The position numbers and the translations under genes are program-made. Of a stretch of DNA of 64,000 nt, positions 20,516 to 33,297 are shown piece by piece. This DNA is from Nonomuraea basaltis. Lineage in GTDB: Bacteria; Actinomycetota; Actinomycetes; Streptosporangiales; Streptosporangiaceae. A model generated the notes under the pieces. The model did no database searches and had not been told where the DNA came from. It saw nothing but the letters and a program-made list of their open reading frames with translations. How positions within the stretch are numbered: the first letter of the stretch is position 1; each line of letters begins with the position of its first letter. The stretch covers positions 1 to 64,000 of the forward strand of contig NZ_VCJS01000006.1 of NCBI RefSeq assembly GCF_005893125.1. Reading direction: 5' to 3'.

Positions 20516-20589
20516 CGGGGTGTAGCGCAGCTTGGCAGCGCGCTTCGTTCGGGACGAAGAGGCCGTGGGTTCAAATCCCGCCACCCCGA
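20516..20589 (+). tRNA. tRNA-Pro (CGG)
   Basis: A complete cloverleaf. The acceptor stem is 20516-20522 with 20582-20588. The D arm is 20525-20528 with 20538-20541, and the anticodon stem CTTCG/CGAAG surrounds loop TTCGGGA with anticodon CGG at 20550-20552. GGTTCAAATC forms the T arm. CCA is not encoded. The 3' half from 20547 is also the attachment core of the adjacent integrated element. Confidence 0.95.
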
Positions 20590-20590
20590 C
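20547..20590 (+). other. attL of the integrated element
   Basis: 44 bases running from the anticodon arm to just past the end of tRNA-Pro recur at 38540-38583 with one mismatch (20563 C versus 38556 T). Duplication of the 3' part of a tRNA gene next to an integrase gene is the classic mark of tyrosine-recombinase integration. The intact tRNA is kept on this side. Confidence 0.93.
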
Positions 20591-20597
20591 CCAGCTC

Positions 20598-20631
20598 AAA
20601 GGCCACTTCCGAGAGATCGGGAGTGGCCTTT
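20598..20631 (+). terminator. Terminator after tRNA-Pro, inside the element
   Basis: A hairpin of about 12 bp (AAAGGCCACT with AGTGGCCTTT plus two more pairs) is followed by a T-rich stretch. It lies between attL and int and can end both the tRNA transcript and, read from the other strand, the long element operon. Confidence 0.75.
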
Positions 20632-20640
20632 TGATCTTTG

Positions 20641-20666
20641 TGCAGCAGCAAAGTGCAGCAATGTCA
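20641..20666. repeat. Left arm-type repeat
   Basis: The 26-base sequence TGCAGCAGCAAAGTGCAGCA followed by AYGTCA occurs here, 50 bases inside attL. It recurs in the same orientation at 38436-38461, about 80 bases inside attR, with one difference. It contains TGCAGCA twice, 13 bases apart. In the excised circle the two copies would flank the attachment core, as arm-type integrase sites do. Confidence 0.6.
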
Positions 20667-20668
20667 CT

Positions 20669-21877
20669 TCACTGGCCGAGGCTGTCGCCGAGCCGCTTGA
20701 GTGCCTTCCTCGTCTCCTCGGACGGGATGTGCGTGTAGACCTCCATCGTGACCTTGATGTCGCTGTGCCGGAGGATCTGCATAGCGACCCGCGGGTGCAC
20801 GTCGAGCGCGGCCAGCAGCGAGGCGCAGGTGTGGCGCGTGTCGTGGATAGTGATCTTTCGTACGCCAGCATGTCGGCATCGAGTGTCGAAGCGGCGGTTG
20901 AAATTGCGCGGCTCGAACGGCGTGCCGTGCTCGGTGGTGAACACGAACCCCGACTCGATCCAGGTTTCTCCAGCTCGCTGCCGCGCTTCCTCCTGGCTCT
21001 TGTGTCGCAACCGAAGAGCCGCAACGCAGACGTCCGGCAACGGCAGCACCGCGTCGGAAGCTTCGGTCTTCGTCTCCCGATGATGAAGCTGCCGCTTGAC
21101 TCGCTGGAGCTGTCGTGAGACGTCCAGCTCGGCGCCGTCGAGGTTGACCCGATCCCAAGTGAGCCCCAGCAGCTCCCCCTTACGCAGGCCCAGCACGAGG
21201 ATGAGCACGTACGCGGCATACAACGCGTCACCATAGCGCCGAGCCGACTCCAGGAACGCGCGAGCCTCCTCCACCGACCATGGCTTGATCTTCCGCTTGC
21301 GCTTGGCCGACAGCCGCACTCCCGTCACCGGACTCTTGGCGATGATCTCTTCACTGATGGCCGTGTTGAGAGCGCTGCGCAGCACACCCCGCGCATCCTT
21401 GATCGTCCGCTCGGACGCGATCTGGTCGCAACACCTCCCTGCCGCGCAGCAGCGAGGAACCTTACGTCGAGCGTCCTTGCCCTGAGCGCAGCACTGGCAT
21501 GTGCGACGTAGCTTGTTCAGCCACAACCGCACATCCCGAACTTGGATCTTGTCGAGACGTTTCGTCCCAAGGTACGGCGTGATGTACAGCCGCACCATAG
21601 TCTCGTAGGTGCTCGCTGTCAGTGGCGCCAGCTCCGGCTCAACGACCTCGCGCACCCAGTACAGCAGGAACGCTGCGAGGGTTGGCGCGTTGACCGCGAC
21701 TGGTCCTTTCTCCACCTTGGCCTTGAGCTCCTTCCACGCCTGCTGTGTTTCGTCGTACGTCTTGCGCTTGACGTACTTACGCTTCCGGACGCCCTCGGGC
21801 GTGGTCACCCAGACGAAGGCCCGGTAGCCGCCCGGGACGGGGTAGATGGATCCTTCTCCGTTGCCTCGTCGGCTCAC
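20669..21877 (-). CDS. int: Tyrosine-recombinase integrase of the AICE
   Basis: 402 aa from the GTG at 21877, preceded by GGGGAGGG. The catalytic set is complete: Arg232 (GLRKGE), Lys270, His345 and Arg348 (HDTRHT), His371 (LRHSD) and Tyr381 (VYTH). The core-binding domain has a Cys-rich insertion (CQCC...CCAAGRCC, about 127-150) seen in pSAM2-type integrases. It catalyses integration into tRNA-Pro and, with Xis, excision. The start overlaps the xis stop, giving coupled expression. Confidence 0.95.
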   Translation of the reverse strand: MSRRGNGEGSIYPVPGGYRAFVWVTTPEGVRKRKYVKRKTYDETQQAWKELKAKVEKGPVAVNAPTLAAFLLYWVREVVEPELAPLTASTYETMVRLYITPYLGTKRLDKIQVRDVRLWLNKLRRTCQCCAQGKDARRKVPRCCAAGRCCDQIASERTIKDARGVLRSALNTAISEEIIAKSPVTGVRLSAKRKRKIKPWSVEEARAFLESARRYGDALYAAYVLILVLGLRKGELLGLTWDRVNLDGAELDVSRQLQRVKRQLHHRETKTEASDAVLPLPDVCVAALRLRHKSQEEARQRAGETWIESGFVFTTEHGTPFEPRNFNRRFDTRCRHAGVRKITIHDTRHTCASLLAALDVHPRVAMQILRHSDIKVTMEVYTHIPSEETRKALKRLGDSLGQ

Positions 21878-22065
21878 TATCCCTCCCCTTCTGCGATCTT
21901 GGTTATGTACTCGTCCACCCATTGCGGAAGGATGCGGCGGTGGCGGCCGTCCTTTACGCTGCGGATCTGGCCGGACAGCACCAGGAACTTGGTCTTGGTC
22001 AGGCCGAAGCCGAGCATCTCGGCGACCTCCTTCGTGCTGTGCCATCGCTTGGTGATCACACTCAT
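21877..22065 (-). CDS. xis: Excisionase, MerR/AlpA-type HTH
   Basis: 62 aa. The helix-turn-helix WHSTKEVAEMLGFGLTKTKF with a following wing (DGRHRRILPQWVDEYI) is typical of small directionality factors. It lies between repSA and int, with four-base or shorter overlaps at both ends, as in pSAM2. It should bend attachment-site DNA and favour excision. Confidence 0.9.
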   Translation of the reverse strand: MSVITKRWHSTKEVAEMLGFGLTKTKFLVLSGQIRSVKDGRHRRILPQWVDEYITKIAEGEG

Positions 22066-23462
22066 GGATCCACCTCCCTTCGAGCTGTCATGCCTGGCGG
22101 CCCGTTGATGATCGATGTAGCCAGCAGCGATTCACCCGCGGTGTAGCCCTGGCCGGCAAAGCTCCAGTGCGCGAGCACGAGCGTGGACTCCTCAGGCAGC
22201 TCGGCCCCGCCGTGCACGCTTTGCGCTCTGCGGTAGTCGGCGCGCTCGTCTCGGACGGCGCCGAGAGTGGTGGAGTAGGCGCGGGACCTGGTCGAGAAGT
22301 GGCCGCGGAAGCCGAGCATGTGAGCCCACTTGCGCAATCTGAGCCCGGTCAGCTCCGGGTACGACTCCGGGTTGCCCAGCCGCCACGCCGTGCGGATCAG
22401 GCGAGCGGCGTGCGAACTGGCGCCCTGCTCGCGCAGCCGGGACAGGTCATGAGCGTGAATGCGCCGATCCAGGGTGCCGGAGGTTTCGGCGGCCTTAGTC
22501 GCATACTTGGCGATGTAGGCGGCCACGGCCTGCTCCGACAGGTGGCCGTCGAGGTCGCCCGTTTCGATGGGCTTGACGTCGACCTGTCGGCCCCACACCA
22601 GCTCCTTAGTCGGCTGGCCGACATCCGGCGCCTTGACCCGCACCGCAGCCACAGCCGAGCTGATAGCGGTCTCCAGCAGCTCCAGCGTGGCCCACGGGGG
22701 CGGTTCGACCACGTCGGCCGGTTCGGTAGTGCGGCCATCGAGGCGAACCACGCCGTGAAAGTGGACGACGCCGCGGGCTTGGTATTCGGCGACCTTGGCG
22801 AACGACACCCGCACCGCCTTGTTGAACGCCGACTGGGTCAGCCCTGCGGCGGCGGCCAGGTGACGGCGCAGATAGATCGTGAAGCGGCGCCACAGCTCGC
22901 CCGCGTGCGCGTTCCACAGCACGTGCCCGACGTAGTCGTAGGAGTCCAGATCGAGCGGTTGGCCGATCCTGCCATCGTCGCTCTTATGCCGCTCGAAACA
23001 GGTCGGGCCGGTCCGGCGCGGGTGGCAGACCCGCCGCACGCCGCTCTTGTCGGGACCGCGATGCACCGGCCCGAACGAGGGCGCCGTCAGTGTCACGAAC
23101 ACGCGAGGGTGAGCGCGCACACTGGCCGGCACACCCTTCGCCCCGCCGAGCAGCCCGGCCCGGATCAGGTGGAAGGTGTCACGCCGGTACAACTCAGCGC
23201 AGGAGGGGCAGCGCGAGGCGCGCCGGTTGCCGCAGCGCACCAGAAGATGGCCGTGCGGTTCGCCCGCGGTGCTGTAGCTCGAGACGATCTCGCCGGAGGC
23301 GGCATCGAGCGTCATCGTTTCGCCCACCAGACGGACCGGTTCCGTACAGCCGCCCAGGCGGTGAACTTGCTCCAGCCAGCGGGACAGGTCCTTGCCGGAG
23401 CGCCGGGCCAGGTCACGCAAGACCGGCCCGACGCACTCGGCGAGCAGCGCAGGCGCGCTCAC
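22062..23462 (-). CDS. repSA: RepSA-type replication initiator
   Basis: 466 aa, GTG start after AAGGAGAG. Rolling-circle motifs are visible: FVTLTAPSFG (motif 1), VVHFHGVVRLDG with the metal-binding HxH (motif 2), and AAYIAKYATKAAE, where the Tyr and paired Lys suit the nicking motif 3. An N-terminal Cys cluster (CGNRRASRCPSC) is also usual for the family. It nicks the double-strand origin so that the excised AICE can replicate. It overlaps xis and the upstream small gene by four bases each. Confidence 0.92.
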   Translation of the reverse strand: MSAPALLAECVGPVLRDLARRSGKDLSRWLEQVHRLGGCTEPVRLVGETMTLDAASGEIVSSYSTAGEPHGHLLVRCGNRRASRCPSCAELYRRDTFHLIRAGLLGGAKGVPASVRAHPRVFVTLTAPSFGPVHRGPDKSGVRRVCHPRRTGPTCFERHKSDDGRIGQPLDLDSYDYVGHVLWNAHAGELWRRFTIYLRRHLAAAAGLTQSAFNKAVRVSFAKVAEYQARGVVHFHGVVRLDGRTTEPADVVEPPPWATLELLETAISSAVAAVRVKAPDVGQPTKELVWGRQVDVKPIETGDLDGHLSEQAVAAYIAKYATKAAETSGTLDRRIHAHDLSRLREQGASSHAARLIRTAWRLGNPESYPELTGLRLRKWAHMLGFRGHFSTRSRAYSTTLGAVRDERADYRRAQSVHGGAELPEESTLVLAHWSFAGQGYTAGESLLATSIINGPPGMTARREVDP

Positions 23463-23698
23463 TCTTGCACTCTCCTTACCTCGACGACCTGGACGCGGAC
23501 CAGGCAGGCATCGCACTGCCGAGCAGCGGGAAGACGACGACCGCAGGCGATCAGCCGACGCTGGCCGTTAGCCTTGACCTCCACCGGACGCCGACACGAG
23601 GAGCCCTCCGCGGCCGTGACGCGGCGGTCCACGCTCCAGGGGTTGTCCTTGACACCGTCGGCGTAGGTTTCGGTCACCTCGACCCGGTAGCGGCTCAT
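23459..23698 (-). CDS. Small Cys-containing AICE protein
   Basis: 79 aa, start ATGA overlapping the methyltransferase stop and end overlapping the repSA start. The C-terminal half has spaced cysteines (SSCRRPVEV, LIACGRRLP, RQCDACLV) that could bind one zinc. The N-terminal half (YRVEVTETYADGVKDNPWSVD) is polar. I recognise no family. Its tight coupling to repSA suggests a role in replication or in setting its level. Confidence 0.7.
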   Translation of the reverse strand: MSRYRVEVTETYADGVKDNPWSVDRRVTAAEGSSCRRPVEVKANGQRRLIACGRRLPAARQCDACLVRVQVVEVRRVQE

Positions 23699-24810
23699 GC
23701 GGCCACCTCGTCGAACAGAGACGGCTGGACAGGCTCGAAGCCACCACGAGTTGCGCTGCCGGAGTACAGGTCGGCCAGGTAGTCGCGTACGGGCTGCTGC
23801 CAGTCCAGGCCGAGAGCCGTGCCGAGGATCGCGGCGGCCACTGGAGGAGAGACGACGTCGGCAGCCTGCAAGAACTGCTTGGACCTGGACCCGCGCCACG
23901 GGTAGTCGGCGGGGAACCCGGTCAAGAGCCCGGCCTGGGATGCGGTGAGTGGGGCGCCGTCGCTGATGCGTTTCCACGAGCGTGCCTTCTCGGTCAGGCA
24001 CCAGGACGGCCGGTCGGCGGAGAACTCATTCCCGCCGGAGGTCTTGCGGGCGCCGCGGGTGTTGACCCGCTCCCCCGAGCCCCAGCCGAGCGCCTGCGCC
24101 ATCGTCACCCGCGGGAAGACGGTGGACGACAGGTTGACGTCGATGCGGGGAGGCTCGAACCGGCCGCACGTCCACCACGACGCCGCCGGCAGGCCGGACA
24201 AGGGGCGGGTGTGGTGCCGGATCGCGATCAGGAAGACCCGACGCCGCAGCGAGGCGACACCGAGATCGTCGGCGTCGAGGGTGACCACCGAGCAGTGCTC
24301 GAAGTCGTGGGCCATGGCCAGCTCGGCGCACATTTCTTCCCAGATCGGCGCGACCGCGGGCACTTGCTCGCAGATCACCCATTGGGCGTACGGGAGGCGC
24401 AGAGCGAACCTCAATGCCTCGACGACCAGCGCGGACCGCTCGTCCTGTACCAGTTCGTAGGCGATGGCGTAGGCGTCATCGGCCGCCGTCCCGGCGTGGC
24501 TGTCACCGAGCCTGGTGATGGCCTCGAGGATGGCGCGGTGGTCGGCCTCCTGAAGCGCGGATCGCTTGCCCGCTTTGCTGAACGTGGGGCAAGGCGGGCT
24601 GACGATCACACCGGTGACGTCGCGCATGCTGTCCGGGTCGAGGTCCTTGACGCTGGTCCGGGTCCGCTCGAACCCGGCGGCCGTCGCTGTGGCGCAGGCG
24701 TCCGCGTCGATGTCGTAGCCGCGGATCTGCTGAGAGAGGCCAAGGATGCGAGCACCCATGTCGAAGCCTCCGGGGCCGGCGAACAGGTTGAGGATTGCGC
24801 GCCCGGTCAC
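23695..24810 (-). CDS. DNA C5-cytosine methyltransferase
   Basis: 371 aa, GTG start. The family motifs are in order: SAM-binding LNLFAGPGGFDMGA (7-20), SPPCPTFSKAGKR with the catalytic Cys74, ICEQVPA holding the Glu of the ENV motif (148), LRRRVFLIA, then a target-recognition region and LTGFPADYP. No restriction enzyme accompanies it, so it is an orphan. In AICEs such enzymes probably protect incoming DNA from host restriction. It overlaps both neighbours by four bases. Confidence 0.92.
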   Translation of the reverse strand: MTGRAILNLFAGPGGFDMGARILGLSQQIRGYDIDADACATATAAGFERTRTSVKDLDPDSMRDVTGVIVSPPCPTFSKAGKRSALQEADHRAILEAITRLGDSHAGTAADDAYAIAYELVQDERSALVVEALRFALRLPYAQWVICEQVPAVAPIWEEMCAELAMAHDFEHCSVVTLDADDLGVASLRRRVFLIAIRHHTRPLSGLPAASWWTCGRFEPPRIDVNLSSTVFPRVTMAQALGWGSGERVNTRGARKTSGGNEFSADRPSWCLTEKARSWKRISDGAPLTASQAGLLTGFPADYPWRGSRSKQFLQAADVVSPPVAAAILGTALGLDWQQPVRDYLADLYSGSATRGGFEPVQPSLFDEVAA

Positions 24811-24950
24811 CGCTTGGCCTCCGCCTTGCCGGTGCCGTTGCAGTTGTCGCAGCGGCGCCAGCCGCGCACGCTGCCGGGGTCGAACACTGACGACGGCACC
24901 CACCCTGCGCCCCGGCAGCGCGGGCAGCCGAAGACCTTGTCCTTGCTCAT
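24807..24950 (-). CDS. Microprotein with DnaJ-like zinc finger
   Basis: 47 aa starting MSKDKVFG. It has two motifs, CPRCRGAGW and CDNCNGTG, that is a pair of CxxCxGxG knuckles as in the zinc domain of DnaJ. GGAGGTG lies seven bases before the ATG. It overlaps the preceding gene (ATGA) and the following methyltransferase. It is one of the array of similar genes that follows. Confidence 0.75.
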   Translation of the reverse strand: MSKDKVFGCPRCRGAGWVPSSVFDPGSVRGWRRCDNCNGTGKAEAKR

Positions 24951-25054
24951 TGGCCGCACCTCCGGCAGAAGATGGCCGTGGCGTAGTTGACCGCCTTGCA
25001 GCGACGGCACTGCCACGTGCTAGGCGTGGTCGGCGGCAGCGTCGGCGCGCTCAT
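24947..25054 (-). CDS. 35-aa zinc-ribbon microprotein
   Basis: 35 aa: a flexible Pro/Thr-rich start, then WQCRRCKAVNYATAIFCRRCGQ at the end, i.e. CxxC-13-CxxC. This is a minimal zinc ribbon. A ribosome binding site (GGAGAGGTGG) precedes the ATG. Start and stop overlap the neighbouring genes by four bases, which is strong support despite its size. Confidence 0.7.
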   Translation of the reverse strand: MSAPTLPPTTPSTWQCRRCKAVNYATAIFCRRCGQ

Positions 25055-25206
25055 AGCCCCGCCACCTCTCCCGGACGCAGGTCATCGGCTGCCAAGCGAC
25101 CGCGGCCCTTGCACCGAGGACATTCGCGGGCCTCGACCTTGCCGCGCGAGCGGCCCGAGCCGCCGCAGCGTACGCAGCGCACGCTCGTGGGCTGGTTGTG
25201 CTTCAT
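25051..25206 (-). CDS. Microprotein with paired CxxCxGxG
   Basis: 51 aa starting MKHNQPTSV. CVRCGGSGRSRG and CPRCKGRGRL make a DnaJ-like zinc module. AAAGGAG is placed nine bases before the ATG. The stop overlaps the next gene. About 120 bases upstream are non-coding and separate this gene from the next array member. Confidence 0.75.
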   Translation of the reverse strand: MKHNQPTSVRCVRCGGSGRSRGKVEARECPRCKGRGRLAADDLRPGEVAGL

Positions 25207-25326
25207 ACTGGAATCTCCTTTGCTTGATGCCAGGTGAAGGAGGCGCGCCCTACGGGACGGCGGACGCCGGCCAAGCTGAGCCGTTCCGTGGGCGCGCACC
25301 CAACAACAGTTGCCGCGTGTCAGCGG

Positions 25327-25491
25327 CTAACAGTGAATAGCGGTATAGATCTCCTCTTCCGAGGAGTTCCGGTATGCTGCGTTCAGTACGGCATAACACC
25401 GCGCTATTTCCTTCGTCGTGCCTATGCTCATGGCTCTCTCGTACTCACGAGCAGCGGTCCTGAGCTTTTCAACTTGCGAGCGGCGAACCAT
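25327..25491 (-). CDS. Small helical AICE protein
   Basis: 54 aa, ATG at 25491 with AAAGGA just before it. It is helical and charged (VEKLRTAAREYERAMS, TKEIARCYAVLNAAYRN) and lacks the CxxC pairs of its neighbours. Not recognised. The ribosome binding site and position inside the array make it likely to be real. Confidence 0.55.
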   Translation of the reverse strand: MVRRSQVEKLRTAAREYERAMSIGTTKEIARCYAVLNAAYRNSSEEEIYTAIHC

Positions 25492-25522
25492 GTTTCCTTT
25501 TCTCCTGGTTCTTGCAGGCGGA

Positions 25523-25681
25523 CTAAGCGAAGTTGACCCAGAACGAGTAGCGGCAGTTGGGGCAGCCGACCTGTAGCCCGGCCTCGCCCACGAGCAGCGC
25601 ATCAAAGCGCCTCAGACGAGTCTCGTAGCGGCAATCGGGGCAGCGCACGCGCCTGTTATTAATGCCTGTTGTGTTTGACAT
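25523..25681 (-). CDS. Zinc-ribbon microprotein
   Basis: 52 aa starting MSNTTGINN. CPDCRYETRL and CPNCRYSFW form a CxxC...CxxC ribbon spaced by about 26 residues. The composition is like zinc ribbons found in other small nucleic-acid-associated proteins. It is part of the same minus-strand array. Confidence 0.65.
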   Translation of the reverse strand: MSNTTGINNRRVRCPDCRYETRLRRFDALLVGEAGLQVGCPNCRYSFWVNFA

Positions 25682-25691
25682 GTGACGGACC

Positions 25692-25859
25692 TCAGCATGC
25701 CCAACACTGAGAGGCGTGCTGATTTGCATGCCTGCTCAGGTTGTAACCCTTGCCACCGCACCCCTCACACACCCATCGACCATAGGGTGCGACTTTGGGA
25801 TCAAAGGCCCATACGACAGTGCTGCCACCCGCGGTGCGGTATGTAATTACATCCTTCAT
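25692..25859 (-). CDS. Cys-rich microprotein
   Basis: 55 aa from the ATG at 25859 with AAGGGAGG upstream. A beta-rich N-terminus (DVITYRTAGGSTVVWAF) precedes CEGCGGKGYN, two histidines and a terminal CWAC. One CxxCxGxG knuckle plus the HxxxHxxxC and CxxC groups could bind one or two zinc ions. Confidence 0.65.
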   Translation of the reverse strand: MKDVITYRTAGGSTVVWAFDPKVAPYGRWVCEGCGGKGYNLSRHANQHASQCWAC

Positions 25860-25878
25860 CTTGCCTCCCTTCGCTTTT

Positions 25879-25983
25879 CTAGCGATCACATTTCGGGCAT
25901 GTCTTCGTACGCACATACAGGTAGCCTTTGCACACCGAGCACCGCGGCATCGGTCGGCACGGTGGAATCTGTTTTCTGCTCAT
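25879..25983 (-). CDS. 34-aa Cys-rich microprotein
   Basis: 34 aa: MSRKQIPPCRPMPRCSVCKG, then a short strand and TCPKCDR at the end, i.e. a CxxC-12-CxxC ribbon with one extra Cys. The ribosome binding site is weak. Support comes from the open frame, the motif and its place in the array. Confidence 0.55.
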   Translation of the reverse strand: MSRKQIPPCRPMPRCSVCKGYLYVRTKTCPKCDR

Positions 25984-25995
25984 CCGTCCGTGCTT

Positions 25996-26121
25996 TCAGT
26001 TGTGGTTGTCGATTCCGGTGCCGTTGCAGTCTCGGCACGTTCGGCTTTCGGAGTCGATCCCGGTGCCGTTACAGGTACAGCACGCATACGACGACAGTGG
26101 AATGAAGCGCCTGTTTGTCAT
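25996..26121 (-). CDS. 41-aa microprotein with duplicated CNGTG
   Basis: 41 aa containing CCTCNGTGIDS and then CRDCNGTGIDN, a near-exact internal repeat of CxxCNGTGID. This is the minimal DnaJ-type zinc module. No strong ribosome binding site is seen. The internal repeat and the neighbours argue that it is real. Confidence 0.6.
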   Translation of the reverse strand: MTNRRFIPLSSYACCTCNGTGIDSESRTCRDCNGTGIDNHN

Positions 26122-26128
26122 TGTCGCG

Positions 26129-26239
26129 TCACAGGTCTTCCCAGAGAATCAACGTGCAGTTATTGCACACTTCGACCTTGTCTTTTTCGTACCACGTGCT
26201 GTCCTTCTTCCCGCACTCCGGGCACAGCGAAGCAGCCAT
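26129..26239 (-). CDS. 36-aa zinc-ribbon microprotein
   Basis: 36 aa starting MAASLCPECGKK and ending CNNCTLILWEDL, a CxxC-17-CxxC ribbon. AAAGGAG lies at good distance before the ATG. It follows an intercistronic hairpin element at 26272-26324. Confidence 0.7.
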   Translation of the reverse strand: MAASLCPECGKKDSTWYEKDKVEVCNNCTLILWEDL

Positions 26240-26271
26240 GTAATTTCTCCTTTTCTCCTTCGTTTGACGAG

Positions 26272-26324
26272 TGGCCTTCCATGAGCCGCCCTCCTGCATA
26301 CGGTGGGCGGCCGGATGCAAAGTC
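26272..26324 (-). repeat. Intercistronic hairpin element, copy A
   Basis: On the minus strand this begins TGACTTTGCATCC right after the stop of the gene ending at 26327. It forms a 7-bp stem (GCCGCCC/GGGCGGC) around a 13-base loop and ends near CATGGAAGGCCA. The flanks are almost identical to copy B at 27610-27664, while the loops differ. Confidence 0.7.
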
Positions 26325-26326
26325 AC

Positions 26327-26488
26327 TCACCGGGACGGAAGAGCTCCGCGACCCTTGCACCGTTTGCAGGTCTGCCCTTCGAACTCATAGCCCTTGCCCA
26401 TCTTCCACCGCCCATTTATCCTGCGGCCCGTGCCCGAGCACTTATCGCAATCCAGCGGCGGAGCAGGCTTCTTCAACAGGCCCACCAT
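26327..26488 (-). CDS. Microprotein with paired CxxCxGxG
   Basis: 53 aa beginning MVGLLKKPAPPLDCDKCSGTG and carrying a second CKRCKGRG near the end, about 32 residues later. GGGAGG precedes the ATG. It is the same DnaJ-like zinc-knuckle type as several neighbours, with a longer insert between the knuckles. Confidence 0.7.
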   Translation of the reverse strand: MVGLLKKPAPPLDCDKCSGTGRRINGRWKMGKGYEFEGQTCKRCKGRGALPSR

Positions 26489-26540
26489 TGCCCACCTCCC
26501 TCTCTATTACTTCGTACGCTTATGAAGTGAGATCATCGTC

Positions 26541-26873
26541 TTATCGCTCTCCGCTGCCCTTGCATCTGCCGCACCAGATGTGGATGGACCCGGACCGGAA
26601 TCCGCCGGCACCCTTGCACCATCGGCATTCCTTCTTCTTCGTGTCGGACGTCTTGCGATGCTGGCCTGCCATGTTCACCTCCTGATCACCGGAACCGGAT
26701 CGGTTTCGAACGGGAAATTTTCCTGTGCCGCCGCACGCCCAGCACAGCCGGAATCGCTGCATTTTCCACCGGATGACCCACCGCTTTTCGGTCACCGTCC
26801 GGCAGATGAGTCTGCGGCCCTCGCACGCCTGGCACACGTCAGCGAGCGGCGGCGAGATTGGCTGGTATGTCAT
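26541..26873 (-). CDS. Double zinc-knuckle protein with internal start
   Basis: 110 aa. The N-terminal half holds CQACEGRRL and CWACGGTGK; the C-terminal half holds CRWCKGAGG and CGRCKGSG. This looks like two array members fused in frame. Within the gene, GGAGGTG followed by ATG at 26672 could start the last 43 aa separately. The ATG at 26873 shares one base with the stop of the gene before it (TAATG), so translation is probably coupled. Confidence 0.65.
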   Translation of the reverse strand: MTYQPISPPLADVCQACEGRRLICRTVTEKRWVIRWKMQRFRLCWACGGTGKFPVRNRSGSGDQEVNMAGQHRKTSDTKKKECRWCKGAGGFRSGSIHIWCGRCKGSGER

Positions 26874-27013
26874 TACAGAGAGCCCCGGCCCTGGCAGGTG
26901 AAGCACTTGCGGCGCACCTCGATAACGAGAAGCTGGCCGTTTTTGAGCGTGGACTTCATTTCGCCGATCTTGCCGACGCCTCGGCAGGTCCGGCATTGAC
27001 CGCTTCTTGCCAT
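26873..27013 (-). CDS. 46-aa microprotein with paired CxxCxGxG
   Basis: 46 aa starting MARSGQCRTCRGVG and ending CFTCQGRGSL, with a KNGQLLVIEVRRK strand pair between the knuckles. GAAAGGAC lies upstream of the ATG. The stop overlaps the next start by one base. This is the cleanest example of the microprotein type in the array. Confidence 0.72.
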   Translation of the reverse strand: MARSGQCRTCRGVGKIGEMKSTLKNGQLLVIEVRRKCFTCQGRGSL

Positions 27014-27077
27014 GACGACTTGTCCTTTCGTGAACGTGAATTGCGAAAATCGCTGGGCGTGGTTATCCGGGGCGCTT

Positions 27078-27242
27078 TCAGCCCAGAACCGCGACGCAGA
27101 AAACAGCGAGCTGGTCAGCGCTGTTCAGGATTCCGCCGAAGACGCCTTTGACGGCTCCCGCGGCTTGAGCCGGACGGGTGAACAGGTAGAAGACGGCGAA
27201 CGCGATAACCGCCCAGCCGAGCCAGCGACGAGGGCGCCACAT
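27078..27242 (-). CDS. Small membrane protein of the transfer region
   Basis: 54 aa, ATG sharing one base with the preceding stop (TGATG). It starts with basic residues (MWRPRRW), then one transmembrane helix (LGWAVIAFAVFYLF), a short loop and a second hydrophobic stretch near the end. Size and place match the small Spd-type spread/transfer proteins of AICEs, but sequence similarity is too weak for a firm name. Confidence 0.6.
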   Translation of the reverse strand: MWRPRRWLGWAVIAFAVFYLFTRPAQAAGAVKGVFGGILNSADQLAVFCVAVLG

Positions 27243-27577
27243 CAGCGCTCACCCCACGCCGTCACGACGCCGTAATAGCTGCTGGCCGCCTGGTGATCGC
27301 GCATGTACTGCTCGCTGATCGTGAGCGCCTCGTAGGTGATCGGCCCGAAGTCGCGCGTGGTCTTGTAGTGCGTGCCCCCGCTGGCAGGTGAGCCGATCAG
27401 CTCGGCTACCTGGTCCACCAGGGCGCGCTCCTCCTCATCGCTGCACCCCTTGGCGTGCACACGGACCGTCTCGCCGTGGCTGGGGACCGGCACTTTGGGG
27501 TTGTCGGCCAGGAACTGCGCCAGACGGCGCAACCCGGCGATGAACTCGCAGCGGACCGTGGGATCGGTGGTCATCAT
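27242..27577 (-). CDS. Hypothetical AICE protein
   Basis: 111 aa from the first of two ATGs after AAGGAGGAG. It is a soluble mixed alpha/beta sequence with RRLAQFLADNPKVPVPSHG near the start and ALTISEQYMRDHQAASSYYG near the end. I do not recognise a family. It is coupled to the membrane protein downstream and follows the intercistronic hairpin copy B. Confidence 0.6.
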   Translation of the reverse strand: MMTTDPTVRCEFIAGLRRLAQFLADNPKVPVPSHGETVRVHAKGCSDEEERALVDQVAELIGSPASGGTHYKTTRDFGPITYEALTISEQYMRDHQAASSYYGVVTAWGER

Positions 27578-27609
27578 CGGTGTTCTCCTCCTTCTGGAAG
27601 GGGCAGGAC

Positions 27610-27664
27610 TGGCTTTCCATGAGCCGCCCACCGGGGAAGGGATGGGCGGCCGGATGCAAGGTCA
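27610..27664 (-). repeat. Intercistronic hairpin element, copy B
   Basis: This starts at the stop codon of the DUF2637 gene and reads on the minus strand TGACCTTGCATCC. An 8-bp stem (GCCGCCCA/TGGGCGGC) with a 12-base loop follows, ending CATGGAAAGCCA. It matches copy A in the flanks and stem but differs in the loop. Confidence 0.7.
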
Positions 27665-28393
27665 GTCCTCCAAATGAGCGATCAGGCTCGCGGCCAGCTC
27701 CGGCGCGATATGCATGCGCGAGCGCAGCAGCTCGGCAGTGATCGGCCGGTCATGACTGGCTCGGTGGGCATCGGCCAGACGGCGGGCATAGGCCACCAGC
27801 GACGGCGACGGCGCCGGCACTTCCGGCTCGTGCTCGACATGCGCGGGTGAGGCTTGTTCCAGAGCAGGGGCGCCCTGCTCCACCGGCAGCCCGGCAGCCT
27901 CGTCGACTCGGTCGACGTGCACCCGCTCAGCCGGGGGCGCGTCGCCTGTGTCGGGTGTCAGCGACGGGTCTTCCCAGACCAGGCCCGTTTCCTTCGCTCG
28001 TGCCGGTTTGCCGTGGCCTGCCCGGCGTTCGATCATTGACATGGCGATCAGGAACGCCGCCGCAGGTGTGGCCGCCATAATCCAGCCCCACGCGCTATCG
28101 CGTGCTTCGGCCAGGTTCGCGGCCAGCGTCAACACGATCCCGCCCGCCAGCACCAGCGACGGCCACGACACCGGCCCGCGCCGACGGCGGCCGGTGCGCT
28201 TGTCGCGCTGGATCTCCCGCGCGGCCATCACGCACACCAGATCGATGCAGACGGCCGCCGCCCACGAGCGCCAACCCTCTTGGCCGTACTTGCGGGCCAG
28301 GCTGGAGATGTGATCGAACGAGCCGACTGCCGCGATTACTGCCAGCACCGTTACCGGCCCCGAATCGGCCAGCATCCGACGCATTCGTTCCAC
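27662..28393 (-). CDS. DUF2637 membrane protein, SpdB-like
   Basis: 243 aa, GTG start after GGGAGGCG. Four hydrophobic helices (about 11-30, 42-57, 78-96, 104-121) are followed by a Pro/Glu-rich linker. A C-terminal DNA-binding-like segment follows (YARRLADAHRASHDRPITAE, then LLRSRMHIAPELAASLIAHL). DUF2637 proteins are the SpdB-type spread proteins of actinomycete plasmids and AICEs, thought to move the element between mycelial compartments with TraB. Confidence 0.85.
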   Translation of the reverse strand: MERMRRMLADSGPVTVLAVIAAVGSFDHISSLARKYGQEGWRSWAAAVCIDLVCVMAAREIQRDKRTGRRRRGPVSWPSLVLAGGIVLTLAANLAEARDSAWGWIMAATPAAAFLIAMSMIERRAGHGKPARAKETGLVWEDPSLTPDTGDAPPAERVHVDRVDEAAGLPVEQGAPALEQASPAHVEHEPEVPAPSPSLVAYARRLADAHRASHDRPITAELLRSRMHIAPELAASLIAHLED

Positions 28394-28417
28394 TTGGTCA
28401 CGCCTCCCTTCCTGTGG

Positions 28418-28603
28418 TCAGCTCCGGGCTTTGCAGGTACAGCCCGGGTGTTTGCACCAGCCCGACGCGTTCGCCCAGGTCGGCTCGTAGATCGCCCAGC
28501 CGCCCGGACTAGCGCCACCGGTGTGGACGGCCCATTGGTGGCCGCAGCCCTGGCACGGCTTCTCCAACTCGTGCATCTCGGTCACATCCATGCAGCGAGA
28601 CAC
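28418..28603 (-). CDS. Small Cys/His-rich AICE protein
   Basis: About 61 aa; the start is uncertain among closely spaced GTG/ATG codons at 28609, 28603 and 28591. It has CQGCGHQWAVH and CKHPGCTCKARS, enough ligands for one or two zinc ions. The pattern CxGCGHxWxxH is common in small actinobacterial mobile-element proteins. It lies between traB and the DUF2637 gene. Confidence 0.6.
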   Translation of the reverse strand: MSRCMDVTEMHELEKPCQGCGHQWAVHTGGASPGGWAIYEPTWANASGWCKHPGCTCKARS

Positions 28604-28705
28604 CCTCACGCCCTTCTCTCAGCCGCATCGCGGCAAGGCTCGGGTAAGGACGTGGCGTGATCAGGGCTCACGCCCGGCCCGTAGGAGCCGACCCCGGGCT
28701 GTGCT

Positions 28706-29890
28706 CTAGACGGGAACTTCGTCCATGTCGGGGTTGGCGAACTCGTCTACCGCTTGCTCGTCCAGCTCGGCGGTATCGTTCACGTTGATGGCGGGACCGC
28801 CGGTGAGCAGCGCCCATGACGGCGTGAGTTCCGCGTACCGCTCGGCGGCTGCTTCGGCTTCCTCTTCGAGCACGTGCACCGAACGGGCGTGATGCCAGCG
28901 GCTATCGGAGCCGATCACCACGGCCGTGCCGGGCCGGTCCGGTGAGATCTGCCGAGCCGCCGCCACCGCGCGCCGGTCCATGTCGCCCAGGCACATCTTG
29001 GCCGTCTCATCGTCGTTGACCATGTGGCAGACGCGGCCGGTCAACTGCGCACGCAGCGCGGTCACGCCCTTGCCCAGGTCCGAACCGACCCGCTGACCGC
29101 ACACGAACAGGTAGATGCCGAACGCCCGGCCGAGCTGCGCGACACGCAGCAGCCTGGTGGCGACCGCGGCCACCTCTTCCTTCTCGTTGTCCGGATCGGC
29201 CATCAAGAACAGCTCGGCCATCTCATCCACGAACACCACGATCGGGATCGGCCGTATCGCGTCCGGCAGCCGCGGATGCCAGATGTTCTTGACCCGGTAC
29301 TGCCGGCACAGCGCCATCCGTGCCTTGATGATGCCGACCAGGTCACCCAGCAGTGCCGCGCACTCCGAACGCTCCGTGGCCAGCGCCGACAAACGCGCCC
29401 GGTACGGTGTGAACTCCACGCCGCCCTTGAGATCGAAGCCGACCAGCGCCACCGGTTGCGGCGCCAATCCCTTGATCAGGGCGTTGGCCAGGTTCGACTT
29501 TCCTGACTGGGTCGCGCCCACGTTCAGCCAGTGCGGCACTGTCCGGAAATCGATCACGTACGCGTTGCCGTTGTCCAACAGCCCAGCCCGCACCCGCAGC
29601 AGACCGTCAGCCGTCACCTCGAGCCCGGCCACCGTGTCCAGCGGATCGACCAGCGTGGCCGCCAGCGTCACCCGGCCCGGCTTCCACGACACCAGCCGCA
29701 CACAATGCACCCGCCAGGCATGCGCCAGCTTGTCGAGCACGTCTTCGTAGTCCTCGGGCGTCTGCCCGTCATGCAAGTACGCCGTCACCTGGAACCCGAG
29801 CGGAGTCGGACGAATCAGCCCGAGCCGCGGAGCCTTCTCCACCTGCACCCGGTGCAGCTTGCGACGCTGCTTGACCATGAGCCCGTGCAT
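28706..29890 (-). CDS. traB: TraB ATPase part, FtsK/SpoIIIE-type translocase
   Basis: 394 aa from the ATG at 29890. Walker A is GATQSGKS (125-132), Walker B is IVVFVDEM (Asp222/Glu223), and QLGRAFGIYLFVCGQ follows. The N-terminal PRLGLIRPTPLGFQVTAYLHDGQ is the usual segment before the motor of AICE TraB. TraB pumps double-stranded DNA between mycelia. The membrane region normally at the N-terminus is absent here and appears in a separate upstream gene. The start shares a base with the preceding stop (TGATG). Confidence 0.9.
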   Translation of the reverse strand: MHGLMVKQRRKLHRVQVEKAPRLGLIRPTPLGFQVTAYLHDGQTPEDYEDVLDKLAHAWRVHCVRLVSWKPGRVTLAATLVDPLDTVAGLEVTADGLLRVRAGLLDNGNAYVIDFRTVPHWLNVGATQSGKSNLANALIKGLAPQPVALVGFDLKGGVEFTPYRARLSALATERSECAALLGDLVGIIKARMALCRQYRVKNIWHPRLPDAIRPIPIVVFVDEMAELFLMADPDNEKEEVAAVATRLLRVAQLGRAFGIYLFVCGQRVGSDLGKGVTALRAQLTGRVCHMVNDDETAKMCLGDMDRRAVAAARQISPDRPGTAVVIGSDSRWHHARSVHVLEEEAEAAAERYAELTPSWALLTGGPAINVNDTAELDEQAVDEFANPDMDEVPV

Positions 29891-30042
29891 CAGCCGCCAC
29901 CGCCCATCGACTTCAGCGCCCTGTAGAAGGCTTCCTCGTTCGAGCCGTAGAAGTGGATCAGCACGTCTTCCTTCTGCTGCTCCGACAGCGAGCCCAGCAC
30001 GACGTACAGTTCCTTGGTCGTGAGCTTGCGGAAGTCGGCCAT
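29890..30042 (-). CDS. 50-aa protein inserted between TraB parts
   Basis: 50 aa: MADFRKLTTKELYVVLGSLS, then a charged helix and EEAFYRALKSMGGGG. It is soluble, helical and not recognised. It is linked by one-base overlaps to both the membrane part (TAATG) and the ATPase part (TGATG) of TraB, so equal amounts are probably made. It may be an adaptor of the split transfer motor. Confidence 0.65.
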   Translation of the reverse strand: MADFRKLTTKELYVVLGSLSEQQKEDVLIHFYGSNEEAFYRALKSMGGGG

Positions 30043-30269
30043 TACTCAGCCCCCCAACCCGGGAAGCCCGGCACACTCCAGCGCCAGCGACGCCGACGCT
30101 TCGACAACCCGCAGCCCGACGCCACCGCCCGCCACGTCCCGTACACCATCACGGCCTTGACCGGGAAGCCCAGCACGTACCAGAACGACACCGGCGCCCA
30201 CCGACGCCACGCCCACAGACACACCGACGCCGCCAGCACGCCGCCCAGCCAGATCAGGAAATCGGCCAT
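30042..30269 (-). CDS. TraB membrane part as separate gene
   Basis: 75 aa with two hydrophobic helices (about 3-19 and 27-45). GTWRAVASGCGLSKRRRRWRW follows. The WR-VA--CGL----RRWRW pattern is what I expect just before the soluble part of one-piece AICE TraB proteins. I infer that this is the membrane anchor of a TraB split over three coupled genes. Confidence 0.6.
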   Translation of the reverse strand: MADFLIWLGGVLAASVCLWAWRRWAPVSFWYVLGFPVKAVMVYGTWRAVASGCGLSKRRRRWRWSVPGFPGWGAE

Positions 30270-30310
30270 ACTAGAACCCGTCTCCTTTCCTCTTGTTGGT
30301 GGTCGGAGAC

Positions 30311-30351
30311 CCCGGAGCGGCCCAAGCCGCCAAGCACACGGCCGCTCCGGG
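30311..30351. promoter_or_regulatory. Intercistronic hairpin upstream of the TraB membrane gene
   Basis: A perfect 12-bp inverted repeat (30311-30322 with 30340-30351) with a 17-base loop lies in the only sizeable gap of the transfer operon. It could be an attenuator or an mRNA processing site separating regulatory and transfer genes. Confidence 0.6.
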
Positions 30352-30358
30352 AAACCCT

Positions 30359-30445
30359 TCAGAACAACGGCTCCATCAGCGGAGCCTCCTTCAGCACCGT
30401 CACCGGCTCGCCCCGCTCCAGATACCTCCGACCGACAATGGCCAT
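30359..30445 (-). CDS. Possible 28-aa peptide
   Basis: 28 aa (MAIVGRRYLERGEPVTVLKE and eight more residues). It is supported only by its one-base start/stop overlap (TGATG) with the preceding microprotein gene and by GGGGGTGG upstream. No family is recognised. Confidence 0.35.
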   Translation of the reverse strand: MAIVGRRYLERGEPVTVLKEAPLMEPLF

Positions 30446-30576
30446 CACCCGCCACCCCCAGCCACCGCGCGGTAGTGGCAGTACGCGCACAACCACTCGT
30501 CGCAGTTGTGTGTCTCGTAGAACTGCGCCGCCGTATCCAGCCCCGCGCCACACTTGACGCAGTTCGCGAGGGCCAT
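30445..30576 (-). CDS. 43-aa zinc-ribbon microprotein
   Basis: 43 aa: MALANCVKCGAGLDTAAQFY, then HNCDEWLCAYCHYRAVAGGGG. CxxC...CxxCH gives a compact zinc site. It is a clear paralogue of the gene at 30576-30704, sharing the LCAYCHY core. Start and stop each overlap neighbours as TGATG. Confidence 0.7.
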   Translation of the reverse strand: MALANCVKCGAGLDTAAQFYETHNCDEWLCAYCHYRAVAGGGG

Positions 30577-30704
30577 CACGCACCACCCGAGACGGCTTGA
30601 TAGTGGCAGTACGCGCACAACCACACGATCCTGTTGCGCCGGGCATCGAACTGCTCCGCCAGGTTCTGCGTCGAACCGCAATCGACACACATCAGCGCTG
30701 CCAT
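30576..30704 (-). CDS. 42-aa zinc-ribbon microprotein
   Basis: 42 aa: MAALMCVDCGSTQNLAEQFD, then RIVWLCAYCHYQAVSGGA. It is paralogous to the following gene, with the same CxxCG...LCAYCHY layout. The ATG overlaps the stop of the regulatory protein gene by one base. Confidence 0.7.
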   Translation of the reverse strand: MAALMCVDCGSTQNLAEQFDARRNRIVWLCAYCHYQAVSGGA

Positions 30705-31033
30705 CAGGCCGCCTTGTCCGCCGCCGGCCGAACCGCCTCACAGCGGAAGCCCATGCCCGCGCGGCCGTCCATCTTCCAGAAGAAGCAGACCAGCCCCGCC
30801 AGCCGGACCTTGCTCCCGACCTGAATCTGCGGGAACACCGTAGACGGGAACGTCACCATGATCACCGGGTTACGCCGGTCATCGTTCGGCATCGGCAGCA
30901 GCGGCAGCGTGTACAACTCACGCCCCTCCGCATCCTTCTTCACCTCACCCGTCGCCCGATCCACGATCTTCGGCTCAGCCTCACCCGCAACCGTGAACGA
31001 CAGGGCCGACGTGTCCACCGGAATGTTGCGCAT
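30704..31033 (-). CDS. AICE regulatory-type protein (SCO3933-like)
   Basis: 109 aa beginning MRNIPVDTSALSFTVAGEAE and containing DRATGEVKKDAEGRELYTLP and SKVRLAGLVCFFWKMDGRAGMGFRCEAV. This matches the small conserved proteins annotated as SCO3933-family regulatory proteins in the transfer operons of AICEs. It is the first gene after the main element promoter. The biochemical role is not established. Confidence 0.75.
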   Translation of the reverse strand: MRNIPVDTSALSFTVAGEAEPKIVDRATGEVKKDAEGRELYTLPLLPMPNDDRRNPVIMVTFPSTVFPQIQVGSKVRLAGLVCFFWKMDGRAGMGFRCEAVRPAADKAA

Positions 31034-31079
31034 CGGTTCGATCCCTTCTAAGTGGGCGCGGTAGACTCTTTCTAGTCGT

Positions 31080-31120
31080 CTACTCGCCTAGAGGAGTTTC
31101 TATCTACATGTATAGAGGAG
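31080..31120. promoter_or_regulatory. Tandem operators of the AICE repressor
   Basis: Two 17-base direct repeats CTAC-N5-TAGAGGAG (31080-31096 and 31104-31120) have starts 24 bases apart. Each lies in an imperfect palindrome (TCTAG...CTAGA at 31071-31092; TCTAT...ATAGA around 31101-31116). The second covers the -10 box and the first lies just past the expected transcription start. They are likely sites for the adjacent GntR protein. Confidence 0.7.
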
Positions 31121-31137
31121 TGCTGAAGGAGTGTCAA
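31109..31137 (-). promoter_or_regulatory. Main AICE operon promoter
   Basis: On the minus strand TTGACA (31137-31132), a 17-base spacer and TATACA (31114-31109) form an almost perfect housekeeping sigma-factor promoter, rare in this GC-rich DNA. It drives the operon that begins with the gene at 31033 and runs toward int. Overlapping operators imply tight repression in the integrated state. Confidence 0.8.
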
Positions 31138-31140
31138 CGA

Positions 31141-31932
31141 CTAATGCGCAGGAAGTTCGTACGACAGTTGATACGCGTCGCCCGACATGATCGTATCGCA
31201 CACTTCAACCGCGTGGCCTTCGAGGTCATAGGCGGTACGTACCAGCCTGAACACCGGCATTCCAGGTCCCAACCCAAGCAGCTGGGCTTCCTCACGCGTG
31301 GGCATGCGAGTCCAGACATCCTCAACGTAACGCTCCAGGACGTGCCCTTGCTCTTCGATGCGAGCGTAGATTCCGCCGGGACCGGGGTTGGGGTCCATGA
31401 TCTGTGTTCCACGCGCAAGCTCGACTGGGATGTACGACGTCGCCAGTTCGACAGGACGACCATCCAGCGAGTAACGACGGCGCCGCGCGACGACGATCGC
31501 GCCTGGCTGTACCTTCAAACGCTCCGCGACATCGGCTGGAGCCGGAGCCTCGTCAACCGTGATCCTGTCAACCGCGGCCTTGGCTCCAACCGTCTCGGAC
31601 TCTGCCAAGAAGGCGGCCTTCCCGTCTTTGCGATGTCGGCGCGCGAACCGGTCCGACGCGAGCCGCTTCACAGGAGGGCGGGCCCGGACAAAGACGCCAC
31701 GGCCATGCTCAGCTACAACGAGTCCTTCTGTCGTCAACTCTTGGATAGCGTTACGAACGGTCATGCGAGCTACGCCGTAGTGTCCCATGAGCTGCGCTTC
31801 AGACGGCAACTTGTCCCCAGCACTGATGCGGCCGGTCCGGACAGCCTCACGAAGATGATCGGCAATCTGGCGGAACACGGCGCGGTCGCTTGCCGGATCA
31901 ATGCGCCTGAGAAGGACTGCGTCGATGCCCAC
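31141..31932 (-). CDS. GntR-family repressor, KorSA/TraR-like
   Basis: 263 aa from the GTG at 31932, six bases after GAGGAG. The winged helix is FRQIADHLREAVRTGRISAG, then LPSEAQLMGHYGVARMTVRNAIQ. A UTRA-type effector domain follows (residues about 95-255). In pSAM2 the GntR protein KorSA holds transfer and replication genes off. Position beside the operator-covered promoter fits that role. Its own upstream region contains a related AGTAGACG-type sequence, suggesting autoregulation. Confidence 0.88.
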   Translation of the reverse strand: MGIDAVLLRRIDPASDRAVFRQIADHLREAVRTGRISAGDKLPSEAQLMGHYGVARMTVRNAIQELTTEGLVVAEHGRGVFVRARPPVKRLASDRFARRHRKDGKAAFLAESETVGAKAAVDRITVDEAPAPADVAERLKVQPGAIVVARRRRYSLDGRPVELATSYIPVELARGTQIMDPNPGPGGIYARIEEQGHVLERYVEDVWTRMPTREEAQLLGLGPGMPVFRLVRTAYDLEGHAVEVCDTIMSGDAYQLSYELPAH

Positions 31933-31994
31933 ACCCAACTCCTCAAGTCGTCTGTACGTCTACTACCTTTAAGCCTATCCACTGGAGGTGACAG

Positions 31995-32423
31995 ATGACC
32001 GGCCAAGACGGACGCCACTCGGTGAGCGTTGCTGGTGTCGTCGTCGATGACGCCGGCAGAGTCTTGCTCGCGCAGCGTGCCGACAACGGCGAATGGCAGG
32101 CACCGGGGGGAGTGCTCGAACTCAACGAGACCATCACCGACGGGGTGCGTCGTGAAGTCCTCGAAGAGACAGGTCTAGTCGTCGAGCCGGTTGCCCTGAC
32201 GGGCGTCTACAAGAACATGTCCCGCGGAATCGTCGCGCTGGTCTTTCGCTGCAAGGGCACAGGTGGACGCCTCACCATCAACGAAGAGGTGACGCGATTC
32301 CACTGGGCGACTCCAGAAGAGGTGCCCCAGATGGTCACTGAGGCGTTCGCAATTCGAGTGCTCGACGCCCTCCACGAAGGAGCACCCGCGATCAGACAGC
32401 ACGACGGCGTCCACCTGGTCTAG
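31995..32423 (+). CDS. Nudix protein, possible Pif-like immunity factor
   Basis: 142 aa. It has a complete Nudix box (GGVLELNETITDGVRREV followed by LEETGL). GGAGGTGACAG precedes the ATG. In pSAM2 a Nudix protein, Pif, blocks transfer between cells already carrying the element. A Nudix gene divergent from the korSA-like gene here suggests the same function, but the substrate is unknown and an ordinary housecleaning enzyme is possible. Confidence 0.85.
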   Translation: MTGQDGRHSVSVAGVVVDDAGRVLLAQRADNGEWQAPGGVLELNETITDGVRREVLEETGLVVEPVALTGVYKNMSRGIVALVFRCKGTGGRLTINEEVTRFHWATPEEVPQMVTEAFAIRVLDALHEGAPAIRQHDGVHLV

Positions 32424-32450
32424 CTGTCACAACTTTCCTCACGTCTTCAA

Positions 32451-32471
32451 GCCCGCCGCGCAGCGGCGGGC
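32451..32471 (+). terminator. Hairpin after the AICE Nudix gene
   Basis: A 9-bp perfect stem (GCCCGCCGC/GCGGCGGGC) with a 3-nt loop lies 27 bases after the Nudix stop. It is terminator-like and lacks a T-tract. Confidence 0.55.
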
Positions 32472-33162
32472 ACACCGTGATCACGGCTAGGAGGCGTGTG
32501 CTAGGCGTTTCCCGCAACGATGAAGATCGAGAAATGGCCGGCATGCAGACGCAGGGCTTCCACCGGAATCCGGAGGATGAACGTCGGAGCTGGGACGATG
32601 TTGCAGCACGGAGACTCACCTGACCTCCACCAGCTCGGGACGATGACTACCAGGAGGACCGAACGTCAGCCTGCCCAGCCCATCACCACCGGCCCCGCAT
32701 TGCAGACACGCACCCCGCCGCGAAGGACGTCGATCAAGCAGCCCGGCCCCTGCGCGCTCGCTCGCGGCGGGCTGCGGCCTTGGGGGCCGGTCCCGCCGCG
32801 GCGGCGCGCGTGCCGCAAGCGGCACCACCCAGGTAGTGATGGCCCAGGTACGGCTTGACCGCATCGCTCTCCTCCCAGGTCTTTCACCAACCCAGCGCCC
32901 ACAGTGAAGGCCACGGCACGCCACCCGCACGGCTCAACACGCCCACGACGAGGATGGCGAAAGCCCTCACACTCATAGGCACCGATCAAAGGTGAAGCGG
33001 CGAATGCGCGACCGCGGGAAAGGTGAAAGAAGGAATGGGGCTCCGCCCCAAACCCCGGCCCTCCTCGGAGATGGCCAGGATCGCGAAAATGTACAGGTCG
33101 GACGGACGTTCCCCGTGATCATCTCCTCGTCGGCCACCACAAGGGAGACCAGACCAGCCGCA

Positions 33163-33297
33163 CCAGGGCAAGCCGCCGACTGCGGGCAGGGCAACCAGCG
33201 CGCGAGGAAGCTCACCGGGAAGCATGTACACGCGAACGACGGCTTGCCCTGGCACGTCCGGCCCGGTATGGCTACGCCTGCCCGACGAGGAGATGAC
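33163..33297 (+). repeat. Dispersed cargo repeat, copy 1
   Basis: About 135 bases nearly identical to 35789-35924 over most of their length and related to 37971-38083. Read in one plus-strand frame all copies keep a similar peptide (NQ...LTG.HVH.N.G..WH.RP...TPARR.DD), and many differences are at silent positions. It may therefore derive from coding sequence. Confidence 0.75.

Follow-up and report, generated by a model that had tools for sequence, protein, structure and literature searches.

The 64,000-nt stretch of DNA analyzed here (positions 1 to 64,000 of contig NZ_VCJS01000006.1 of Nonomuraea basaltis, hereafter the window) carries an actinomycete integrative and conjugative element (AICE), in which 15 small genes between pra and repSA encode cysteine-rich microproteins. 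It is virtually certain that these are real protein genes of the element, and the substitution patterns among related elements show that selection maintains most of them. The sequence profiles of six members show that they fall into the same zinc class as DnaJ, anti-TRAP, UvrA and Q-lambda. As for their role, we tentatively favor the reading that the microproteins act as protein adaptors for the element's own replication or spread.

Cysteine-rich genes and the selection on them

All 15 open reading frames (ORFs) listed in a preliminary description of this DNA are present with the stop codons given there, on the minus strand, two upstream of tra and 13 downstream of it (Table 1). Two entries of that list had to be recast: m23459 is a frame of 79 aa following the C5-methylase gene, and 26541-26873 is one ORF with an internal ATG. 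At least two CxxC motifs occur in 13 of the 15; in m23459 and m28418 a single CxxC is accompanied by two or more other cysteines. The DnaJ-like CxxCxGxG pairs of that description were found, by direct reading, as two full repeats in six members, namely m24807, m25051, m25996, m26327, m26873 and the C-terminal half of m26541. Its term "zinc knuckle" is right as to the paired cysteines but loose, as the members are DnaJ-type hairpins and zinc ribbons. From the spacing of the cysteines we infer that the microproteins bind zinc. Many of them are 26-50 aa long, and genes of that size are easily missed by gene callers. The knuckles of m26541 comprise two CxxCxGxG repeats and one partly degenerate pair; its internal ATG at 26672 lies behind AGGAGGT, the short form with a Shine-Dalgarno (SD) site is found in the window and in the two near relatives L007 and L116, and this start would also yield the C-terminal 43 aa alone. 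Interleaved with the array are the C5-methylase gene and six small ORFs without paired CxxC (25327, 27078, 27242, 29890, 30042 and 30359), of which ORF 30359 has no relative by tblastn. The start/stop overlaps reported earlier are also there: 11 of the 25 junctions in the string from pra to repSA overlap by 1 or 4 nt, and the final junction of the string, m23459/repSA, has the overlap GTGA.

High G+C inflates open frames, which would favor reading the genes as chance frames or conserved non-coding DNA, and m24947 and m26129 are without a signal of purifying selection. Against this, the sense strand has 11 segments of up to 130 aa that contain two CxxC and the antisense strand has 1, and the same count in 300 Markov-2 sequences has a mean of 0.13 and a maximum of 2. 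The ratio of nonsynonymous to synonymous substitution rates (dN/dS), the check proposed at the outset, is mostly 0.04-0.5 against L007 and L116, which points to purifying selection on most members, the values being rough where, as is often the case, synonymous divergence is high. The higher values are 1.56 for m24947 against L007, from few changes, 0.91 for m26129, and 0.65-0.71 for m30445, for which a single L007/L116 copy also matching m30576 gives no clean orthologue value. For m29890, which is without CxxC, the values are 0.91 and 0.38. When 24 gene pairs are pooled with m30445 excluded, 493 of 975 changes fall on third codon positions (p 1e-28), although m24947 runs opposite to this bias with 3 of 19 changes and several other genes are individually non-significant. 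Moreover, 109 of 111 aligned cysteines are kept. Because of the Markov and antisense controls, the orthologue dN/dS, the pooled third-position bias and the kept cysteines, to which the SD sites and overlaps are added, we regard chance or non-coding origin as practically negligible.

Fold class, recurrence and family A

With profile A3, the DnaJ Cys-rich domain 1EXK is matched at 3e-12 and anti-TRAP at 7.6e-5, and the best match of profile A1 in PDB is anti-TRAP (0.011). For the AlphaFold2 model of m24807 (pLDDT 76), the leading Foldseek matches are DnaJA2, DnaJ, UvrA, anti-TRAP, BSD2 and Q-lambda. The family cut-offs are not reached: the best score to PF00684 is 28.0 bits (m24807; gathering score 32.7), that to NF058604 is 26.1 bits for an extra member in L007, with window members lower (cut-off 65), and that to PF15777 is 25.5 bits (cut-off 32). 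The CxxCxGxG repeats are common to the microproteins and the DnaJ Cys-rich domain (PF00684; 1EXK, DnaJA2 7ZHS), but DnaJ has four repeats and two zinc sites, whereas the microproteins have two repeats, hence presumably one zinc, and no J domain. Anti-TRAP (RtpA, PF15777) is alike in being a free-standing protein of about 50 aa with two CxxC, whose spacing is near that of m25996; however, m25996 ends shortly after its second knuckle and no TRAP link is known for the microproteins. In anti-TRAP the four cysteines hold one zinc and the protein acts by binding another protein, as described in excerpts of PMC4027176. Taken together, a single-zinc fold of the DnaJ type is highly probable for the six members. 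Other members, m25523, m24947, m26129 and m30576, match different zinc-ribbon models, mostly below cut-off, with m25523 above the cut-off of TIGR02098.

The microproteins had been described as a family expanded by duplication, which is only partly supported: clear tandem duplicates are limited to the pair m30445/m30576, the DnaJ-type members are weakly alike, and several others are of different zinc-ribbon types. The best mutual matches of the DnaJ-type members are 7e-7 (m25051/m24807), 2e-5 (m24807/m26327) and 4e-5 (m25996/m26327), whereas their identity to their own counterparts in L007 and L116 is 51-93%. The members are thus closer to their counterparts than to each other, so that any duplication among them must be older than the separation of these elements.

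AICEs occur widely in actinobacteria, and of 200 genomes sampled from the host's family 135 have RepSA. To measure recurrence, ORFs of up to 130 aa with two CxxC and an SD site were counted in 88 distinct RepSA loci with 6 kb or more of upstream sequence. The mean is 1.52 per locus on the sense strand and 0.02 on the antisense strand, and downstream flanks, where long enough, give 0.04 per 6.5 kb; apparently seven or more of those on the sense strand are out-of-frame readings of tra. The expectation that such ORFs recur at this place in other AICEs is borne out in 49 of the 88 loci, each with at least one, and Streptomyces or Streptantibioticus accounts for 28 of the 39 loci without any. Ten such ORFs each were counted in the window, L007 and L116, and 8, 7, 6 and 6 in L016, L131, L015 and L132, which are Nocardiopsis loci or have arrays sharing its families. 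Such arrays are found again in AICEs of Nonomuraea and of the Nocardiopsis type. Clustering of 144 ORFs from 101 loci gave 20 groups of at least two, two of which are out-of-frame artefacts of tra, and 30 singletons. Membership is not constant, since no counterpart was found in L007 for m25692, m26129 and m28418, nor in L116 for m24947, and in L007 the end of the extra DnaJ-type ORF overlaps the repSA match. A separate basic DnaJ-type microprotein (CRGCRGRGW...KRRCLDCDGSG) was observed at L018:4721-4891 and in six other Streptomyces loci, about 5-6 kb upstream of repSA.

One family, represented by m25996 and called family A, accompanies repSA. Profile A1 at E <= 0.001 has matches in 109 of 200 genomes of the host's family, the weakest of them including long frames of DnaJ length which are taken to be host DnaJ. 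Among the matches listed with E <= 8e-10, at least 90 of 122 are on the same strand as, and upstream of, a RepSA; 16 of the remaining 32 were inspected, and in 15 of them family A is followed by repSA and usually preceded by tra and a DUF2637 gene, while the sixteenth locus, L183, has no RepSA match. Among 296 genomes sampled across the class, 11 match family A at 1e-6 and all 11 are of the host's family, the non-family share of the 296 being uncounted.

The place of family A corresponds to that of SpdB. The comparison covered 77 of 80 named loci (three with less than 900 nt upstream were left out), and SpdB-type proteins were assigned by a three-seed profile, one seed matching PF05122 at 2.9e-30. 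Streptomyces-type loci have an SpdB-type protein in 38 of 39 cases and family A in none of the 39, and the other loci have family A in 25 of 38, SpdB in 0 of 38 and neither in 13, a split which is confounded with host taxonomy. The order DUF2637 - SpdB - rep holds in 38 of 38, and m25996 likewise lies between the DUF2637 gene and rep, as does family A in 14 loci showing all three genes. Family A is mostly 0.1-0.5 kb upstream of repSA, at 2.5 kb in the window and at 1.4-2.1 kb in some array-bearing relatives. The A-type clusters have mean net charges of about -3, and that of m25996 itself is 0. SpdB (PF05122) is also a small Cys/His protein, but its motif is C-x4-C...H-x-C (30 of 38) against two CxxCxGxG in family A. 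No PF05122 match was found for 14 of the 15 zinc proteins of the window, m30445 being outside the scan and m25523 being judged on the best 25 of its 28 matches. Spd proteins act in intramycelial spread, and actinobacterial elements are already known to encode Spd proteins as well as small zinc proteins.

The element and its conserved non-coding blocks

The AICE setting proposed at first was confirmed by an att repeat and a gene set of the RepSA class. The direct repeat at 20547-20590, in tRNA-Pro(cgg), is identical to that at 38540-38583 in 43 of 44 positions, and RepSA, integrase, an Xis-like protein, FtsK-type Tra, and Pra- and KorSA-like regulators are all encoded on the minus strand, where the transfer-replication string reads pra - tra - DUF2637 - zinc microprotein array - repSA - xis - int. 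By att site and full gene set, the element is an AICE of the pSAM2/RepSA class, with which it has in common the int-xis-repSA-tra-pra-kor set and the tRNA att site; the closest named relatives of its RepSA are from Nonomuraea. The array, in contrast, is not mentioned in the available excerpts of PMC3218068 and PMC8584621. The earlier statement that no system built of such arrays is known agrees with our literature searches, which found no coupled arrays of DnaJ-type and other zinc microproteins with a RepSA-linked member.

Table 1. Features of the element and of its microprotein array
Feature	Position	Strand	Evidence and remarks
AICE, ~18 kb	20547..38583	.	bounded by 44-bp direct repeat copies
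Tyrosine integrase	20669..21877	-	PF00589 1.2e-18, PF14659; start tentative
Xis-like HTH_17	21877..22065	-	PF12728 2.5e-7
repSA	22062..23462	-	PF20199 2.5e-162 (match on longer frame); GTG start overlaps m23459 stop
m23459, 79 aa, four Cys	23459..23698 (ATG 23698)	-	77% L007, 74% L087; dN/dS 0.21, 0.32
C5-cytosine methyltransferase within array	23695..24810	-	PF00145 6.4e-17 (match on longer frame)
m24807, DnaJ-type knuckle pair, 47 aa	24807..24950	-	PF00684 2.7e-6 (below cut-off); dN/dS 0.23 (L007), 0.49 (L116)
m24947, RanBP/L40e-like zinc ribbon, 35 aa	24947..25054	-	NF003161, PF00641, both below threshold
m25051, DnaJ/anti-TRAP-type, 51 aa	25051..25206	-	PF15777 4.9e-5, PF00684 1.5e-4 (below cut-off); dN/dS 0.49, 0.14
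m25523, MJ0042-type zinc ribbon, 52 aa	25523..25681	-	TIGR02098 27.3 bits, cut-off 20.9; dN/dS 0.22, 0.14, 0.16
m25692, CEGC...CWAC, 55 aa	25692..25859	-	74% in L116, dN/dS 0.10
m25879, CSVC...CPKC, 34 aa	25879..25983	-	counterparts in L007, L116, L008; dN/dS 0.13-0.17
m25996, family A, DnaJ/anti-TRAP-type, 41 aa	25996..26121	-	dN/dS 0.04, 0.08
m26129, zinc-ribbon-like, 36 aa, weakest member	26129..26239	-	sole homologue 29 aa (L116), dN/dS 0.91
m26327, DnaJ-type, 53 aa	26327..26488	-	PF00684 4.8e-6 (below cut-off); dN/dS 0.24, 0.32
m26541, 110 aa, two knuckle pairs	26541..26873	-	open frame of 110 aa also in L007, L116
m26873, DnaJ-type, 46 aa	26873..27013	-	93% in L007; dN/dS 0.05, 0.24
Conserved gene without CxxC, 111 aa	27242..27577	-	22 loci (tblastn)
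DUF2637 protein	27662..28393	-	PF10935 5.2e-10
m28418, Cys-rich, 57 aa	28418..28591 (GTG start 28609 possible)	-	80% L116, dN/dS 0.14; 79% L017
traSA, FtsK/SpoIIIE-type	28706..29890	-	PF01580 3.8e-22
m30445, zinc-ribbon-like	30445..30579	-	tandem duplicate of m30576, phmmer 3e-14
m30576, zinc-ribbon-like, 42 aa	30576..30704	-	dN/dS 0.32 (L007), 0.11 (L116)
pra-like gene	30704..31033	-	NF051478 SCO3933 family, 109.7 bits, cut-off 80
korSA-like GntR/UTRA regulator	31141..31938	-	PF07702, PF00392

The spacers 25206-25327 and 30270-30352 (minus strand) have strong hairpins. The former is 94% (L007) and 90% (L116) identical, well above the adjoining microprotein genes; for the latter the identity to L007, L116 and L008 is 90-91%, a level close to that of pra and tra. 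Just downstream of tra, at 28640-28674 (minus strand), a GGCGTGA...TCACGCC hairpin is followed by GTCCYTACCCGA; this block is kept in the window and in 20 BLAST-selected AICE loci of several genera and is a candidate origin or cis-acting transfer site. Related hairpin leaders stand on the minus strand at 26240-26328, before m26129, and at 27578-27661, before the 27242 gene, and copies related to them are found in L116 and L007 after m26327 and after the DUF2637 gene. For small zinc proteins there is a precedent in SpdA2 of pIJ101, a Streptomyces rolling-circle plasmid, which was also an overlooked small ORF with a zinc-finger motif and, according to excerpts of PMC4170104, binds palindromic sps DNA. 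Repeated palindromes of that kind are in no excess here: in a search for exact repeats, the window element has no repeated palindrome of 10-14 bp, and 101 loci gave 11 sps-like cases (14 minus 3 runs of N) as against 30 in shuffled loci.

The place of the C5-methylase gene varies: in the window it is within the array, in L007 it is flanked by tra and the DUF2637 gene, and in L009 it is near repSA, after a knuckle ORF. A 21-nt repeat beginning TGCAGCAGCAAAGTGCAGCAA lies near both element ends (20641-20661 and 38436-38456), possibly representing integrase arm sites. At 36204-37871 on the plus strand, in the element's low G+C stretch (36-37 kb, 48%), a protein of 555 aa with a P-loop-like GRTGSGKS motif is possible cargo.

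Possible functions and their meaning

We give a probability of roughly 0.4 to the view that the microproteins are protein adaptors for the element's own replication or spread. On this view, each knuckle pair would hold one zinc in a small beta-hairpin that links one protein to another. Family A, whose charge is neutral to acidic, would attach to RepSA or to the DUF2637/Tra machinery and tune replication or spread, in the slot filled by SpdB in Streptomyces elements. The accessory members, most of them basic and gained or lost from one element to the next, would have other partners or act on nucleic acid. Of the roles suggested in the preliminary description, that of an adaptor for RepSA/Tra would fit the position best. 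The adaptor reading is our first choice because of the position of the genes, their coupling, their restriction to these elements, the charge of family A and the anti-TRAP precedent. Ranking close behind is another possible role, in which the microproteins regulate copy number, stability or antitermination by binding element DNA or RNA, such as the spacer hairpins, the origin or the nascent transcript. It ranks there because of the basic accessory members (10 of the 15 window members have a net charge of +3 to +15), the structured and conserved non-coding blocks in the spacers, the weak Q-like matches (PHROG phrog_6060 "anti-termination protein Q-like" at 3.5e-4 for m25996, and Q-lambda in PDB at 0.018 for A3) and the precedents of SpdA2, described in excerpts of PMC4170104 as acting on DNA, and of Q-lambda in antitermination; the neutral to acidic charge of family A, the lack of excess of sps-like palindromes and the very weakness of the Q-like matches speak against it.

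An anti-host set, made up of proteins that would block the defence or other factors of a newly entered host and encoded beside the orphan C5-methylase, would fit the differing membership between the near relatives L007 and L116 and the methylase gene in the window array and near repSA in L009; but low dN/dS on most single genes and the association of family A with RepSA make it unlikely, and no described anti-defence family is among the Pfam and NCBIfam matches listed for the proteins scanned, few such families being modelled there and PADLOC not having been searched. That the many cysteines per operon merely store zinc or buffer redox state without specific partners is very improbable, as non-Cys positions are conserved too and the families are distinct. 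Returning to the adaptors, a bolder form of the proposal is rather doubtful, namely that they make up a new class of mini-DnaJ zinc modules, each with a single zinc and one partner of the element for replication, spread or establishment, one of them widespread and RepSA-linked and the others lineage-specific, up to ten or more in one operon.

The small genes in the spread and replication regions of AICEs are largely unexplained, and they can now be defined as families, one member of which accompanies repSA, which opens part of a "hypothetical" region to testing. Should the adaptor reading prove true, these would be very small, free-standing zinc proteins of the DnaJ type, a parallel to anti-TRAP in another setting.

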